DNA of 64,000 nt from positions 1 through 64,000 of the forward strand of contig NZ_FNCV01000002.1 of assembly GCF_900100455.1 (NCBI RefSeq). The letters are read 5' to 3'. The notes below the pieces were generated by a model. It was not told the DNA's origin. It was given only the letters and a program-made list of their open reading frames with translations, and searched no databases. Source of the stretch: Roseospirillum parvum (GTDB lineage: Bacteria; Pseudomonadota; Alphaproteobacteria; Rhodospirillales; Rhodospirillaceae). Positions 5,250 through 62,330 of the stretch are shown here, piece after piece. The number at the start of each line of letters is the position of its first letter. The first letter of the stretch is position 1. The translations under genes and the position numbers were made by a program.

Positions 5250-5466
5250 GGGACACGCCGGCAAGGCAAAGGGGCGCTGCCCCTTTGATCCCCGCTGGGG
5301 AGGCCGGGGGGCCTCCCCAGACCCCACCATGAGTCAAAACCCCACCGAGGGGGGCAAGCCCCCCTCGGTGGGGTTTTAAGTCACGGCGGGGGTCCGGGGG
5401 GGCCCCTGGTCCCCCCGGCGGGGGTCAAGGGGGCGGCGCCCCCTTGCCTTGCCGACGCGTCGCTCA
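5247..5466 (+). repeat. Composite nested palindromic element, copy between purN and yacG
   Basis: The core spans 5267-5447. In order: palindrome a (5267-5288, CAAAGGGGCGCTGCCCCTTT), palindrome b (5295-5320, CTGGGGAGGCC...GGCCTCCCCAG), a linker, a central terminator-like stem at 5336-5377 (AAAACCCCACCGAGGGGGGC, loop AA, mirror arm ending TTTT), then inverted versions of b (around 5392-5419) and a (5426-5446). The right half read backwards resembles the left half, so the whole region is one large imperfect palindrome. Symmetry extends outward: 5247-5277 matches the reverse complement of 5436-5466 at 27 of 31 positions, starting exactly at the purN and yacG stop codons. A bidirectional terminator role is inferred. 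Confidence 0.9.
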
Positions 5467-13722: not shown

Positions 13723-13963
13723 GCCAGAGCGCGCAAGGTCAAAGGGGCGCCGCCCCTTTGAAATCCCCGCTGGGGAGGCCGGAAGGCCTCCCCAGACCCC
13801 ACCATGAGTCAAAGCCGTGAAGAGGGGGGTATCCGAGCGCGCGCGCTCGGATACCCCCCTCTTCACGGCTTTAAGTCGCGGCGGGGGTCCGGGGGGACCC
13901 CCGGTCCCCCCGGCGGGGGTTCCAAGGGGGCAGCGCCCCCTTGGCGTTGCCCGCCCCGGCTCA
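13720..13963 (+). repeat. Composite nested palindromic element with a 62-bp perfect central palindrome
   Basis: Same architecture as the copy at 5247-5466: palindrome a (13739-13761), palindrome b (13770-13795), centre, inverted b (around 13888-13916), inverted a (13922-13944). The centre at 13811-13872 differs from all other copies. It is a perfect palindrome of two 31-bp arms with no loop, beginning AAAGCCGTGAAGAGGGGGG and ending with its mirror ACGGCTTT. The outer flanks mirror each other at 25 of 31 positions from the stop codon at 13720 and from the convergent stop at 13963. It is flanked by convergent genes, so a bidirectional terminator role is likely. Confidence 0.9.
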
Positions 13964-18115: not shown

Positions 18116-18192
18116 TGGTCGGAGTGAGAGGATTCGAACCTCCGGCCCCTGCCTCCCGAAGACAGTGCTCTACCAGGCTGAGCTACACTCCG
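18116..18192 (-). tRNA. tRNA-Pro (anticodon CGG)
   Basis: The minus strand folds into a full cloverleaf: acceptor CGGAGTG/CACTCCG, D arm GCTC...GAGC, anticodon arm CTGTC-TTCGGGA-GGCAG with anticodon CGG, TpsiC arm GGAGG-TTCGAAT-CCTCT and an encoded CCA end. It resembles bacterial tRNA-Pro. Its 3' end faces the foreign-looking DUF262 gene, but I see no direct repeat of the tRNA 3' end on the far side of that gene. Confidence 0.95.
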
Positions 18193-24271: not shown

Positions 24272-24413
24272 CTCAAGGGGCGCGGTTACAGAAGGCGGCC
24301 ACTGGGGAGGCCTCCGGCCTCCCCAGACTCAAAAGGGGCGGTTGCCGAAGGCGACCGCTGGGGAGGCCTCCGGCCTCCCCAGACTCAAAAGGGTCGGTTG
24401 CCGAAGGCGACCG
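24272..24413 (+). repeat. Tandem 56-bp repeats built on palindrome b of the composite element
   Basis: Two direct copies (24302-24357 and 24358-24413) differ at one base. A degenerate partial copy precedes them from 24272. Each unit holds the palindrome CTGGGGAGGCCTCCGG-CCTCCCCAG and then a weaker stem, CGGTTGCC-GAA-GGCGACCG. Palindrome b is the same as in the compact elements at 5247-5466 and elsewhere, but here it is tandem rather than inverted. It lies in the presumed 5' leader of the methyltransferase gene. Confidence 0.85.
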
Positions 24414-24945: not shown

Positions 24946-25710
24946 ATGCCCGCGCCAAGCCCCACTGCCCCACCCCTGCCCGCTTTCACCTGCCAGGCCC
25001 CGAGCCTGGCCGGCCTGGACCACGTGACGGTGTGGATCTTCGATCTGGACAACACGCTGTACCCGGCCACCTCCAGCCTGTTCCCGCAGATCGACCGGCG
25101 CATGAAGGGGTTCATCTCCGAGCGCCTGAAGCTGTCCGAGGCCGAGGCCTTCGCCTTGCAGAAGGACTACTTCCGCCGCTTCGGCACCACCCTGCGCGGC
25201 CTGATGCTGAACCACGACGTGGCGCCGGCCGAGTTCCTGGACTACGTGCACGACGTCGACCACACCTGCCTGATCGCCGATCCGCGCCTCGACGCGGCGC
25301 TGGGGCGCCTGGAGGGGCGCAAGCTGGTGTTCACCAACGGCAGCCAGAGCCACGCCGAGGCGGTGTTGCTGAAGCTGGGCCTGGAGCGCCATTTCGAGGC
25401 CATCTTCGACATCATCGCCGCCGACTATGTGCCCAAGCCAGTCCCCGAGACCTACCTGAAGATGACCCGGCGCCACGGCATCGACCCCCGGGAGGCGCTG
25501 TTCGCCGAGGATTCCCACCTCAACCTGAAGCCGGCCCACGAGATGGGCATGGCCACCGCCTGGGTGCGCAGCGGCGCCCCCGATCCTTTCGGCCCGCCGC
25601 CGGAGGGCGACCTGTCCCACTGTCAGCATGTGGTGCGGGACTTGGCGCCGTGGCTGGCCCGGGTGGTTGACGAGGTCCAGGCGGCTGGCAAAGGGGCGCC
25701 GCCCCTTTGA
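24946..25710 (+). CDS. HAD hydrolase, pyrimidine 5'-nucleotidase type (TIGR01993-like)
   Basis: 254 residues. WIFDLDNTLYPATSSLFPQID is the nucleophile motif (Asp-x-Asp) with the family's NTLYP signature. LVFTNGSQSHAEAVL is motif II, and AEDSHLNLKPAHEMGM supplies the terminal acidic residues. It probably dephosphorylates pyrimidine nucleotides or a related phosphate. The last residues (GKGAPPL) and the stop codon are encoded inside palindrome a of the repeat element, and the preceding codons (25668-25699) mirror the 3' end of the convergent GDH gene. The natural C-terminus may have been extended by the element. The ATG at 24946 was chosen to give the family's usual N-terminus. Confidence 0.87.
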   Translation: MPAPSPTAPPLPAFTCQAPSLAGLDHVTVWIFDLDNTLYPATSSLFPQIDRRMKGFISERLKLSEAEAFALQKDYFRRFGTTLRGLMLNHDVAPAEFLDYVHDVDHTCLIADPRLDAALGRLEGRKLVFTNGSQSHAEAVLLKLGLERHFEAIFDIIAADYVPKPVPETYLKMTRRHGIDPREALFAEDSHLNLKPAHEMGMATAWVRSGAPDPFGPPPEGDLSHCQHVVRDLAPWLARVVDEVQAAGKGAPPL

Positions 25711-25884
25711 ACCCCGCTGGGGAGGCCGGAGGCCTCCCCAGACCCCACCATGAGTCAAAAACCCACCAGGGGGCTTGCCCCCTGGTGGGTTTTTAAGTCA
25801 CGGCGGGGGTCCGGGGGGACCCCTGGTCCCCCCGGCGGGGGTCAAGGGGGCAGCGCCCCCTTGCCAGCCGCCGGAACCGCGTCA
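25668..25884 (+). repeat. Composite nested palindromic element between the HAD and GDH genes
   Basis: The core is 25689-25863: palindrome a (25689-25710), b (25717-25741), centre 25757-25794 (AAAAACCCACCAGGGGGC, loop TT, mirror arm), inverted b and inverted a (25843-25863). The left flank from 25668 mirrors the right flank ending at the GDH stop (25884) at 28 of 32 positions. On the left this mirrored sequence is coding, in the HAD gene. The centre sequence is unique to this copy. Confidence 0.9.
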
Positions 25885-39915: not shown

Positions 39916-40133
39916 GCCTGGGGCGCCAGGCCAAGGGGGCGCTGCCCCTTGGAACCCCCGCTGGGGAGGCCGGGGGCCTCCCCAGACCCCACCCTTGAGT
40001 CAAAACCCCACCCAGGGGGGCAAGCCCCCCTGGGTGGGGTTTTAAGTCACGGCGGGGGTCCGGGGGGGTCCCTGGTCCCCCCGGCGGGGGTTCCAAGGGG
40101 GCAGCGCCCCCTTGGCTGGGCGCCCCAGGCTCA
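39913..40133 (+). repeat. Composite nested palindromic element downstream of dppF
   Basis: The core is 39931-40115: palindrome a (39931-39952), b (39961-39984), centre 40002-40043 (AAAACCCCACCCAGGGGGGC, loop AA, mirror arm), inverted b and inverted a (40093-40115). The left flank starting at the dppF stop TGA (39913) mirrors the right flank ending at 40133 at 28 of 30 positions, including a TGA on the minus strand. Unlike the other compact copies no convergent gene is evident on the right. Transcription of dpp should end here before dsr. Confidence 0.9.
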
Positions 40134-49016: not shown

Positions 49017-49153
49017 CCGCCCTTGATCCGATTGTCGACCCTGGTTCCGCTCCCCGGACCCCCGTCAAGGGGTTCACCCGGCGGAGCCGGCGCTTCGCGC
49101 CCTTGACGGGGGTCCGGGGAGCGGAAGGCTGCCGACCATCGGATCAAGGGCGG
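49017..49153 (+). repeat. Long inverted repeat between dsrL and dsrJ
   Basis: Arms at 49017-49071 and 49100-49153 pair over most of their length. The inner 24 bp (CCGCTCCCCGGACCCCCGTC plus AAGG and its mirror) are a perfect match, and the outer CCGCCCTTGATCCG is also perfect. The 28-nt loop contains a further small stem (GGCGGAGCCGGC). The motif TCCCCGGACCCCCG recalls the linker of the composite palindromic family but the rest differs. Its position inside the dsr operon suggests attenuation or processing. Confidence 0.8.
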
Positions 49154-55065: not shown

Positions 55066-55847
55066 TGACCTCGACCATCCTCACCCTGGCCCGGCGCGAG
55101 TTCATCCGCTTCGTGCGCCAGCCGCACCGGGTCGCCGGCAGCCTGGGCCAGCCGGTGCTGTTCTGGCTGTTCCTGGGCTCGGGCTTCACCCCCAGCTTCC
55201 AGGGGCCGGGGCTGTCGGAGATGACCTACCTCGAGTACTTCTACCCCGGCGTTTTGATGATGATGATGCTGTTCACCTCGGTGTTCTCGGTCATCACCGT
55301 CATCGAGGACCGCGACCAGGGCTTTTTGCAGGGCGTGGTGGTGGCCCCGGTGCCGCGCCTGGCCATCGTGCTGGGCAAGGTGCTGGGCAGCGCCGGCATC
55401 GCCCTGTTCCAAAGTTTCCTGCTGCTGCTCGCCGCCCCCTTCCTGGGCCTGCCGCTGACCGTCTCGGGCAGCGCCCTGGTCATCGGCTCGATGATCCTGT
55501 GCAGCCTGGGCTTCACCACCCTGGGCTTTGCCTTCGGCTGGGGGATGCGCTCGACCTCGGGCTTTCACGCCTTCATGATGATCTTCCTGATGCCGTTGTG
55601 GATCCTCTCCGGGGCCATGTTCCCGCTCAGCAACCTGCCCGGCTGGCTGGATGTCATCACCACCCTGAACCCGGTCACCCACGCCATGACCCTGCTGCGC
55701 GCCGGCTTCTATGCCCCCGCCGCCGAGGCCCTGGCCCAGCCCGGGGTGCTCTCCGCCCTGGGCATCACCGCCGCCTGGGTGATCGCCGGCATGATCGCCT
55801 CGGCGCAGCGGGTCGGGGTGCGCGAGGAGGGCGCCCCCCTTGGCTGA
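55062..55847 (+). CDS. ABC-2 type transporter permease
   Basis: 261 residues with about six helices. The start MMTSTILTLARREFIRFVRQ and FVPSG-like loops, here IEDRDQGFLQGVVVAPVPRL, are typical of ABC-2 permeases (DrrB/NodJ). It forms an exporter with the preceding ATPase; substrate unknown. Its last codons overlap the hldE start. Confidence 0.9.
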   Translation: MMTSTILTLARREFIRFVRQPHRVAGSLGQPVLFWLFLGSGFTPSFQGPGLSEMTYLEYFYPGVLMMMMLFTSVFSVITVIEDRDQGFLQGVVVAPVPRLAIVLGKVLGSAGIALFQSFLLLLAAPFLGLPLTVSGSALVIGSMILCSLGFTTLGFAFGWGMRSTSGFHAFMMIFLMPLWILSGAMFPLSNLPGWLDVITTLNPVTHAMTLLRAGFYAPAAEALAQPGVLSALGITAAWVIAGMIASAQRVGVREEGAPLG

Positions 55848-57303
55848 CACCCCCGCCGCCGATCTGGGTGAGCTGCTCGGCCGCCTCGCCGGGGCGCCGG
55901 TGGTCTGCGTCGGCGACCTCATGCTGGACCGCTTCGTCTACGGCTCGGTCGGGCGAATCAGCCCGGAAGCGCCCATCCCCGTGCTGGCCATCGAGCGGCG
56001 CACCTCCATGCTGGGCGGAGCCGGCAACGTGGCCCGCAATCTGGCCGCCCTGGGTGCCGTGCCCCACTTCCTGGCCGCCGTCGGCGACGACACGGCGGGC
56101 GACGAGGTGGCCCGCCTGCTCGCCGAGTTGGGGGCGAGCGTCCATCTGGCCCGCCAGCCGGGCCGGCCGACCACCATCAAAACCCGCTATTTCGCCGCCA
56201 ACCAGCAACTTTTGCGGGCCGACGAGGAAACCGCCGAGCCGCTGGCCCAACCGGTTCTGGACCAGATCGCCGAGCACGCCGAGGCCGCCCTGCAAGGGGC
56301 CGGCGCCCTGGTCCTCTCCGACTACGGCAAGGGCCTGCTCACCGCCGACCTCACCGGCCGCCTGATCGACGCCGCGCGCGCCCTCGGCGTGCCGGTGGTG
56401 GTCGACCCCAAGGGGCGCGACTTCAGCCGCTATCGCGGCGCCCGGGTGATCACCCCCAACCGCGCCGAAGCCGCCCTGGCCAGCGACCTGCCCACCGAGA
56501 CCGACGCCCAGGTGGCCGCCGCCGGCCAGGCCCTGTGCGCGGCCAGCGGCGCCGAAGCCATCCTGATCACCCGCAGCCAGCACGGCATGAGCCTGATCGA
56601 GGGCGCGGGCACCCTCCACCTGCCGGCCCGGGCGCGCGAGGTGTTCGACGTCTCCGGCGCCGGCGATACCGTGGTCGCCGCCCTGGCCGCCGCCCTGGCC
56701 GGCGGCCTCGCCCTGCCCGAGGCGGCGCGGCTGGCCAACGTCGCCGCCGGCATCGTGGTCGGCAAGGTGGGCACCGCCACCGCCAGCGCCGACGAGGTGC
56801 TGGCCGCCCTCCACCACCAGGACCTGTGGCGGGCCGAGCACAAGCTGCTCTCGCTCGACGCGGCACAGAGCCGGCTCGCCGACTGGCGGGCCCGCGGCCA
56901 GCGCATCGGCTTCACCAACGGCTGCTTCGACCTGCTCCACCCGGGCCACCTGTCGCTGCTCGCCGAGGCCCGGGGCCAGTGCGACCGGCTGGTCGTCGGC
57001 CTCAACTCCGACGCCTCGGTAAAACGCCTGAAAGGCCCCGAACGGCCGATCCAGAACGAAGCCGCCCGGGCCACCGTGCTGGCCGGGCTGGCCGCCGTCG
57101 ATGCCGTGGTCATCTTCGCCGAGGATACCCCGCTCTCCCTCATCAAGGCCCTGGCCCCCGACGTGCTGGTCAAAGGCGCCGACTATACCGAGGACCAAGT
57201 GGTCGGCGCCGCCGAGGTGAAAGCCCGGGGCGGCCGCGTCCACCTGGCCCGGCTGAAGGAAGGCCACTCGACCACCAGCACCGTGCAACGGCTGAAAGGC
57301 TGA
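55840..57303 (+). CDS. hldE: Bifunctional heptose-7-phosphate kinase / heptose-1-phosphate adenylyltransferase
   Basis: 487 residues from a TTG at 55840, with a GGAGG about 10 bases upstream, overlapping the permease end. The N-terminal ribokinase-type domain has VGDLMLDRFVYG, LGGAGNVARNLAALG and the catalytic SGAGDTVV (Asp276). The C-terminal cytidylyltransferase-like domain has FTNGCFDLLHPGHLSLL (from 358) and GADYTEDQVVGA. It makes ADP-glycero-manno-heptose precursors for LPS core. The linked ABC exporter might act in envelope biogenesis, but this is only proximity. Confidence 0.97.
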   Translation: MADTPAADLGELLGRLAGAPVVCVGDLMLDRFVYGSVGRISPEAPIPVLAIERRTSMLGGAGNVARNLAALGAVPHFLAAVGDDTAGDEVARLLAELGASVHLARQPGRPTTIKTRYFAANQQLLRADEETAEPLAQPVLDQIAEHAEAALQGAGALVLSDYGKGLLTADLTGRLIDAARALGVPVVVDPKGRDFSRYRGARVITPNRAEAALASDLPTETDAQVAAAGQALCAASGAEAILITRSQHGMSLIEGAGTLHLPARAREVFDVSGAGDTVVAALAAALAGGLALPEAARLANVAAGIVVGKVGTATASADEVLAALHHQDLWRAEHKLLSLDAAQSRLADWRARGQRIGFTNGCFDLLHPGHLSLLAEARGQCDRLVVGLNSDASVKRLKGPERPIQNEAARATVLAGLAAVDAVVIFAEDTPLSLIKALAPDVLVKGADYTEDQVVGAAEVKARGGRVHLARLKEGHSTTSTVQRLKG

Positions 57304-57311
57304 AGAAGGCA

Positions 57312-57742
57312 CAAAAGGGGCTCCGCCCCTGACCCCGCCGGGGGACCGAAGGCGGTCCCCCGGACCCCCGCCATTTCGTTGGTGCGAAACGCTCGGGATG
57401 AGCAGGGTGCTCCGGTTTTTTGGTTGCAGGCCAGCTTTGCTGGCCTGCTGAAACACCCCCCAGAGAAACACGCCTCCGATAGCCGAAGGCACTCTGAAGC
57501 GCGTTTCGGGGTGTTTAAGCAGGCCGGCTTGGCCGGCCTGCTTAAACAACCATGGGCCCAAGGCTCTGTGGTCGGTCGGCGTGTCGACGCGGTCGGTAGG
57601 TTTTTGGTTGCGGGCCAGCAAAGCTGGCCCGCGTAATTAACCCCTAGCGGGCAAGCCGTTCACCGGCGCGGTTTGGCACCAACGAATTGGCGGGGTCCGG
57701 GGGGACCCTGTCCCCCCGGCGGGGTGCGGGGCGGAGCCCCGC
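57312..57742 (+). repeat. Expanded composite palindromic element after hldE
   Basis: A forward unit (palindromes 57316-57330 and 57338-57363) and an inverted unit (57697-57719 and 57726-57742) flank a 300-bp centre. The centre itself has terminal inverted repeats: 57368-57390 matches the reverse complement of 57671-57693 at about 21 of 23 positions around TTCGTTGGTGC. Inside lie four stems: 57426-57448 (GCAGGCCAGC, loop TTT), an outer AAACACCCC/GGGGTGTTT pair (57451-57459, 57508-57516), 57513-57547 (16-bp arms around TTG) and 57610-57632 (GCGGGCCAGC, loop AAA). The first and last share a TTTTTGGTTGC lead-in. No ORF or RNA gene is recognised in 57304-57839. Confidence 0.85.
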
Positions 57743-57839
57743 GCGCGGAGCCCAAGCTTCCCCCCCTTTGACCGGACGCAAGGCGTCGTTCAGGCTTGGT
57801 GGTTAGGGTCTGCTGTCCATTCGCAACGGAGGGTGTTCG

Positions 57840-58463
57840 ATGTCCCTGCCTTTTGATCCCCTGGCCCATGCCTTGTATGGCCTGGGCTGGCTCAGTTTCG
57901 GGCTTAGCCATTCGTGGCTGGCCGGGCCGGCGGCGGAGCGGCGTTTCAAGCCTCTGTTCGGGGCCTGGTGGCGGATTGTCTACAATGTCATCTCGACCTT
58001 GCACATCCTGCTGGTGATGGCGCTGGGTGGCTGGCTGCTGCCGGCTGGCCAGCCGCTGCCGCTGCCTGACTGGGCGCCGTGGGCGATGGGCGCGGTGGGG
58101 GTGCTGGGGGTTGGGCTGATGGTGTGGTTCGCCGGCTACTATGACGGCATGCGCCTGCTGGGGGTGACCCAGCTCAAGGGTGCTCACGAGGGCCACGCCG
58201 AGTCCGACGAGGAGCCATTGCACCGGGTCGGCCCGCACCGCTACGTCCGTCACCCGCTGTACAGCGCCGGCATCCTGATCTTCTGGGGCCTGGCCTTCAC
58301 CGAGGCCGGGCTGGCCACCGCCATCTGGGCGACCCTGTATTTCTGGCTGGGCAGCCGGCACGAGGAAAGGAAACTCACCCGCCTGTTCGGCGAGGACTAC
58401 ACCCGCTACCGCAACACCGTGCCCGCCCTGATCCCCTGGAAAGGCCGCGCTTGGGTCGAGTGA
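57840..58463 (+). CDS. NnrU / isoprenylcysteine methyltransferase-like membrane protein
   Basis: 207 residues with about five helices. The C-terminal region HRVGPHRYVRHPLYSAGILI and ERKLTRLFGEDYTRYRN resembles the ICMT/PEMT SAM-binding segment of membrane methyltransferases; NnrU-annotated proteins share it. The substrate is unknown. GGAGGG precedes the ATG at 57840. The stop codon marks the left edge of the palindromic element. Confidence 0.8.
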   Translation: MSLPFDPLAHALYGLGWLSFGLSHSWLAGPAAERRFKPLFGAWWRIVYNVISTLHILLVMALGGWLLPAGQPLPLPDWAPWAMGAVGVLGVGLMVWFAGYYDGMRLLGVTQLKGAHEGHAESDEEPLHRVGPHRYVRHPLYSAGILIFWGLAFTEAGLATAIWATLYFWLGSRHEERKLTRLFGEDYTRYRNTVPALIPWKGRAWVE

Positions 58464-58703
58464 CCCCCAGGCGTGGGACGTGGAGCCATGCAAAGGGGCG
58501 CTGCCCCTTTGAACCCCGCTGGGGAGGCCGGGGGCCTCCCCAGACCCCACCATGAATCAAAACCCCACCCAGGGGGGCTTGCCCCCCTGGGTGGGGTTTT
58601 AAGTCACGGCGGGGGTCCGGGGGGGCCCCTGGTCCCCCCGGCGGGGGTTCCAAGGGGGCAGCGCCCCCTTGGCAGGGCCCCACACTCCACGCCTGGGGGG
58701 TCC
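58461..58703 (+). repeat. Composite nested palindromic element between the NnrU-like gene and amtB
   Basis: The core is 58491-58672: palindrome a (58491-58512), b (58519-58543), centre 58559-58600 (AAAACCCCACCCAGGGGGGC, loop TT, mirror arm), inverted b and inverted a (58650-58672). The flanks mirror each other over about 35 bp with small gaps: GACCCCCAGGCGTGG on the left pairs with a near-identical sequence on the right (ending about 58702). The centre's flanking AATCAAAA/TTTTAAGT is in the orientation opposite to the copy at 62119-62330. Confidence 0.9.
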
Positions 58704-62121: not shown

Positions 62122-62330
62122 CGCGGGCCGGCAAAGGGGCGCTGCCCCTTTGATCCCCGCTGGGGAGGCCGGGAGGCCTCCCCAGACCCCACCATGACTT
62201 AAAACCCCACAAGGGGGGCTTGCCCCCCCTTGTGGGGTTTTGATTCACGGCGGGGGTCCGGGGGGGCCCCTGGTCCCCCCGGCGGGGGTCAAGGGGGCGG
62301 CGCCCCCTTGGCGACACGCGCCAGTCTTCA
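62119..62330 (+). repeat. Composite nested palindromic element between the hydroxylase and cysNC
   Basis: The core is 62132-62311: palindrome a (62132-62153), b (62159-62184), centre 62201-62241 (AAAACCCCACAAGGGGGG, then a mirror arm with one extra C), inverted b and inverted a (62290-62311). Flanks match at about 20 of 25 positions. Here the centre's outer bases read ACTTAAAA on the left and TTTTGATT on the right, the inverted form of the copy at 58461-58703, so the centre has been flipped in one of them. Confidence 0.9.

Follow-up and report, generated by a model that had tools for sequence, protein, structure and literature searches.

According to PMC3733652, REP/BIME sequences are multi-copy intergenic palindromes, often arranged as oppositely oriented pairs and located mostly between convergent or unidirectional genes. 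Triplex motifs (TM_ECO, PIT and BoxC) are described in PMC4666352 as G/C-rich intergenic hairpins that sometimes form inverted pairs. The same text names Rhodospirillum photometricum DSM 122 as abundant in such motifs, almost all of them G/C, so that their sheer number in a related lineage is already on record, and it reports that TM_ECO is found more frequently upstream of ORFs and that no terminator activity was seen for it. Stem-loops are also enriched at 3' ends, most strongly in convergent gaps, the usual terminator stem being of 6-8 bp (PMC1590033).

We analysed a window of 64,000 nt from Roseospirillum parvum (contig NZ_FNCV01000002.1, positions 1 to 64,000), in which a large palindromic element lies at 57317-57740. 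The elements of its family resemble REPs and BIMEs in their high copy number and in forming intergenic palindromes that stand as inverted pairs at the 3' ends of genes, but they are far larger (about 235-700 bp when tandem arrays are counted), nested and bounded by double-hairpin arms, and they have neither a GTAG/CGTC tag nor a Y1 transposase domain in their own genome. They are also similar to G/C triplex motif pairs, and the published TM_ECO consensus pattern had no exact match in the window. As with bidirectional terminators they concentrate at 3' ends, and over the family T is enriched outside the element ends, although in this genome a repeated element of 180-700 bp forms the end structure. 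Finally, they are short, multi-copy and non-coding with long terminal inverted repeats, like MITEs, but lack target duplications, the transposase search having been made for Y1_Tnp. Judged by titles and abstract openings, none of the papers listed in our searches describes these elements. We read the feature, with a probability of roughly 60%, as a three-hairpin member of a multi-copy, modular, BIME-like palindromic family that acts as a bidirectional transcript-end unit. The family is multi-copy and modular, is confined to gene 3' ends in our sample, keeps its design across genera and varies at orthologous gene ends.

The element is a 424-bp, non-coding, intergenic nested inverted repeat, with hairpins within hairpins (Table 1). 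Its outermost inverted units (57317-57344 and 57713-57740, 28 nt) are 93% complementary, the second units (57354-57390 and 57671-57707, 37 nt) are 86% complementary, and a structured centre of 318 bp lies inside, in agreement with an earlier reading made from the letters alone (the sequence-only reading), which had reported two inverted units and a centre of about 300 bp. From the outside inwards, each arm consists of H1 (GGGGC-3 nt-GCCCC), H2 (a CCGGGGG...CCCCCGG hairpin), GACCCC and a short inner repeat, TTCGTTGGTGC, whose sole two perfect matches within the window are at 57375-57385 (+) and 57676-57686 (-). The sequence-only reading had assigned this repeat to the centre as terminal inverted repeats of its own; the repeat is present, but because it directly continues the arms it is the inner end of a single long terminal inverted repeat, one unit of about 70 nt per side, and not a separate repeat. 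The centre contains three near-perfect 23-nt core hairpins (B1-B3), spaced by about 92 nt, plus a weaker stem, and the first and third core hairpins have in common the lead-in TTTTTGGTTGC (direct-repeat family D1); both the four further stems and the lead-in shared by two of them had been correctly recognised before.

Table 1. Coordinates of the element, its parts and its neighbours in the window.
Feature	Position	Strand	Remark
Upstream gene, HldE-type bifunctional (PfkB + cytidylyltransferase)	55840..57303	+	
Left outer arm: H1 57317-57329 + H2 ~57338-57363	57317..57372	+	
Left terminal inverted repeat, inner end, ATTTCGTTGGTGC	57373..57385	+	
Lead-in TTTTTGGTTGC of B1	57417..57427	+	family D1
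Core hairpin B1, GCAGGCCAGCTTTGCTGGCCTGC	57426..57448	+	at least 107 genome places
Weaker stem, between B1 and B2	57470..57492	-	
Core hairpin B2, GCAGGCCGGCTTGGCCGGCCTGC	57519..57541	+	
Lead-in TTTTTGGTTGC of B3	57601..57611	+	family D1
Core hairpin B3, GCGGGCCAGCAAAGCTGGCCCGC	57610..57632	+	in extra third module; among four aligned copies, otherwise only L158
Right terminal inverted repeat, inner end, GCACCAACGAAT as + strand	57676..57687	-	
Right outer arm: H2' ~57697-57719 + H1' 57728-57740	57688..57740	-	
Downstream gene, PEMT-type methyltransferase family	57840..58463	+	Pfam PEMT, 32 bits, cut-off 25
Compact element closest to 57317-57740, between convergent genes	58491..58671	+	181 bp

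Folding of both strands, which had been proposed as a check, showed the element and its centre to be far more stable than shuffled sequences: the whole element reached z = -11.25 (+) and -13.77 (-), with 0 of 100 shuffles equally stable on either strand, and the centre by itself z = -8.33 (+) and -10.64 (-). RNAalifold covariation among the own-genome copies was slight (-0.78 of -185 kcal/mol). A coding gene in the centre was rejected: the sole ORF across it (85 aa, 57379-57636) had no Pfam match, and indels between paralogues are not always multiples of three.

The element starts 13 nt past the hldE stop, its end is separated by 99 nt from the next start codon, and it takes up 424 of the 536 nt of this gap. 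The sequence-only reading, which placed it between co-directional hldE and NnrU-like genes, was right about the HldE-type gene and the shared + strand; the NnrU-like assignment was not confirmed, the Pfam match being to PEMT. Among the hldE loci of relatives, the downstream homologue begins no more than 21 nt from the end of hldE, or overlaps with it, in 7 of 80 (L054, L068, L073 from Rhodospira trueperi, L091, L100, L109 and L123), and a further gene or gap follows hldE before the homologue in L051, L065, L127, L132 and L130. The simplest reading would be an insertion between two formerly adjacent genes. In the last of these loci, which belongs to another genus (genome G003), an arm-centre-arm inverted repeat stands right behind hldE (arms 674-720 and 809-855, 72% complementary), so this gene end may have served as a site repeatedly, or in the distant past.

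The element belongs to a large repeat family. Its centre had 75 matches in the 3.5-Mb genome of the strain, the core hairpin pattern occurs in at least 107 places and the H1-H2 arm pattern has 114 + 113 occurrences, with none for the control of either pattern (for the core hairpin, the reversed pattern). We fetched 46 own-genome loci (L138-L183), holding 75 of the at least 107 core hairpins. The long elements in these loci consist of an arm, then one, two or three core hairpins, then an arm; the first core hairpin mostly begins about 108 nt from the arm edge, some elements form tandem arrays, and both arms were recognised by pattern in 39 of the 46. The variable pairs were complementary in all 75 core hairpins, in three pair combinations found 51, 16 and 8 times. 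Among the 40 of 105 candidates that were scored in the search with the centre, there was one full-length relative of 57317-57740 (C14:316559-316871, L158; 76%), and half-centre matches were obtained at C26:265286 (90%) and C26:454147 (82%). Other long-centred copies, which the sequence-only reading had proposed to look for, therefore exist, and the centre is multi-copy and non-coding, not the unique sequence or unrecognised gene that would have spoken against that reading. The three-hairpin form is rare, the window copy and L158 being its clear cases among the 46 loci. These two share a third-hairpin module of about 90 nt that is missing from L176 and L178; since L176, 90% identical to the window copy across the first half of the centre, lacks that module, size in the long family varies by whole modules.

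Several long copies have an additional repeat hairpin, TACCAACCGGCGATGAG...CTCATCGCC, beyond one arm or beyond each of the two; it was seen in the flanks of L149, L150, L151, L152, L162, L165, L166, L170, L177 and L179, and also at about 245-290 of the window.

A second, compact family occurs in the same genome. The compact element from 58491 was found in 40 places at 92-100% identity among the matches listed for the own genome, and we fetched 30 of the 40 places listed on the better strand. Since compact and long elements have similar outer arms but unrelated central hairpins, the compact copies are, as judged from their sequences, a sister family and not simple deletion derivatives of the long form. 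Blast similarity between the two is essentially limited to the outer 60-70 nt, bar matches deep in the largest elements, which we interpret as the inner arms of tandem arrays, and in a comparison confined to arms recognised by pattern 145 of 154 nearest neighbours were of the same class. In compact copies, the sequences that flank the shared part on either side are complementary to one another site by site (mean 19.0 versus 8.2 for mismatched sites; 0 of 10,000 permutations), above the 99th percentile at 23 of 30 sites, and this complementarity fades over 30-40 nt. For long copies it was not clear (7.6 versus 7.2, with 2041 of 10,000 permutations as high); with 14 nt skipped, the values were 9.3 versus 7.4 (16 of 10,000), a signal that we attribute, partly at least, to another outer repeat present throughout the family. 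The effect was weaker in relative G027 (eight compact loci and one long), with 1 of 20,000 permutations, and 21 of 20,000 after 8 nt were dropped.

The private inverted repeats of the compact copies (30-40 nt; L184-L213) sometimes take in both stop codons. All five well-supported convergent pairs in the window hold a compact element (5267-5446, 13740-13943, 25689-25863, 58491-58671 and 62132-62310), several of them with the stop codons some 20 nt away, and an additional compact copy (39932-40114) lies behind a gene in tandem.

The position of the elements relative to genes was assessed with a gene finder of our own, based on codon usage and trained with 28 ORFs of the window, not with annotation. 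Fifty of 77 long and compact sites were convergent, 27 tandem and none divergent, the long sites being divided into 26 convergent and 21 tandem (n = 47) and the compact sites into 24 and 6 (n = 30), again with no divergent gap in either class. Element-free gaps of at least 100 nt in the DNA examined (n = 43) comprised 22 tandem, 20 divergent and 1 convergent (Fisher p 3e-11), a comparison in which the convergent share is biased low because most of the gaps were taken from loci selected for carrying an element. Long elements lie at a median of 43 nt from gene 3' ends (n = 61) and 153 nt from 5' starts (n = 17), and 16 of 17 tandem copies are closer to the 3' end of the upstream gene. Away from the anchor sites, an arm was found in 4 of 8 convergent pairs, a very small sample. 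The absence from divergent gaps could also reflect mere selection against promoter damage.

T residues are enriched immediately outside both element ends, making up 214 of 468 at positions 1-6 as compared with a background of about 20%, and just 31 of 78 ends have four or more T in six. In the window copy the T-tract is on the left, minus-strand side only (TTTTGTGC), and the right side reads GCGCGCGG; as the latter has no T-tract, a canonical intrinsic terminator for hldE is unsupported at the exit of the element. Internal terminator-like sites on the + strand are weak, and the region has four on both strands versus 1.4 expected. When G-T and A-C mismatches were compared in looser hairpin matches, neither strand was clearly indicated.

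The arm pattern was found in 10 of 73 genomes of the family, the own genome included, with at most 12 occurrences in any other, and class-wide in 2 of 385 genomes, again including the own. The centre had no match among 72 same-family relatives, and the exact core-hairpin pattern had none in a wider genome contig collection from which the own genome was perhaps excluded; a phage search also gave no match. We fetched 20 loci from relatives. The layout is the same in the loci of G021, G027 and G028, most of which lie between convergent genes; G029 and G039, with one locus each, showed one arm only, and G027 contains both forms (eight compact, two long-type). A long-type consensus of 10 sequences contains two-sided changes at 14 of 40 pairs.

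Occupancy differed between species of a single genus at orthologous gene ends, where the element classes were assigned by reading of the sequence. At the first end, at which the downstream gene is not identical in all genomes, the element is compact in G027, long in G021 and partly armed in G025, and plain hairpins stand in G028 and G026. At the second, G027 is again compact, G022 and G024 are long, G028 has an H1-like hairpin only and G026 a plain hairpin. Thus, the occupancy of gene ends changes over time. On plasmids we obtained matches to the right arm only, in three Pseudoroseomonas records: L236, L237 and L238, from Pseudoroseomonas cervicalis plasmids, contain a solitary H2-H1 arm near position 1500, 92-100% identical over 35-53 nt, directly behind genes and in one case between convergent genes. 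The arm alone on these plasmids indicates that arm and centre are separable. This accords with part of the earlier suggestion of a mobile cassette in the centre, namely a unit that can occur by itself, but the signs of transposition looked for were absent: no Y1_Tnp (PF01797) was matched in the own genome by a search whose control was positive in 5 of 14 cases, including E. coli, and neither 39 long nor 30 compact copies showed an excess of target-site duplications over permuted flanks. Two loci share 581 bp of downstream flank at 91% identity (L141:1771-2350 and L171:1829-2396), starting from the element edge, and their left flanks gave no match, which suggests possible recombination between arms. 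L181 has an opposite-orientation copy of about 490 bp of this shared region.

Two double-hairpin arms (H1-H2) face each other around one to three core hairpins, and in the mechanism that we propose RNA polymerase leaving a gene would generate a long branched 3' hairpin. Termination would follow after the far H1 in copies with an outward T-tract, and the structure might block read-through or antisense transcription and shield the mRNA end. Copies could arise or be swapped by homologous recombination among the many arms, or by insertion through a putative mobiliser. At hldE, the element stands between two genes whose counterparts almost touch in several relatives. For the elements in general we infer termination, protection of mRNA ends and mobility. 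If this reading is right, the gene-end signals of a whole bacterial lineage have become a repeat family whose members are acquired, lost and exchanged among species, providing a natural experiment on terminator evolution and spread and accounting for the abundance of G/C hairpins across the genomes of one lineage.

A tentative extension, which we consider possible but rather unlikely, is that the elements are exchangeable end-of-gene cassettes that replace ordinary terminators and grow by palindrome nesting. Compact copies are centred in site-private inverted repeats of 30-40 nt, which in such a scheme would result from entry into the loops of terminator hairpins or from fold-back DNA synthesis copying a flank outward, without a known transposase; the private flanking palindromes lead to a specific prediction on palindrome growth or hairpin targeting. 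It is also conceivable, and similarly doubtful, that we are dealing with a selfish miniature element, MITE- or REPIN-like and functionless, that survives where promoters are unharmed, its 3'-end placement being a by-product. The long terminal inverted repeats, the high copy number, gain and loss at orthologous sites and the 581-bp flank (91%) running from the element edge in L141 and L171, with unmatched left flanks, would all suit such an element, whereas the missing target-site duplications (39 long and 30 compact copies), the genome without a Y1 transposase domain, the T-tracts enriched outside the ends and the ordinary hairpins at orthologous element-free ends argue against it. Mobilisation of a classical REP/BIME by a REP-associated tyrosine transposase is disfavoured and very improbable: the core hairpins do form spaced, BIME-like inverted pairs, and the location between convergent or unidirectional genes is that given for REPs in PMC3733652, but none of the 150 stem ends of 75 core hairpins has a GTAG or CGTC tag within 8 nt, and Y1_Tnp was unmatched in the own genome by a search that was positive in E. 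coli and four others.

The sequence-only reading had raised two further explanations as possibilities. A stand-alone small structured RNA in the centre, either an sRNA or a cis-regulator of the downstream gene, would agree with the very stable folds on both strands, yet the entire window contained nothing at the Rfam gathering threshold but a tRNA (18119-18192), a permissive search of 57250-57800 gave sub-threshold matches only, no sigma-70-like promoter was found near the element, the dispersed copies adjoin many different genes and the palindromes are near-symmetric, so that no strand is preferred; we regard this as very unlikely. Least probable, and also disfavoured, is a parental role of the long form, from which the compact copies would have come by internal deletion. 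Arms of the same kind occur in both, but the blast similarity in the outer 60-70 nt (with the exception noted above), the different centre, nearest arms within their own class and clear copy-specific complementary flanks in compact copies only all speak against descent by deletion, as does the presence of both forms in another genus (G027).

Elsewhere in the window, at 49045-49126 and 24302-24382, tandem gaps contain G/C-flavoured inverted repeats with perfect arms of 27 nt and a repeated CTGGGGAGGCC... sequence.
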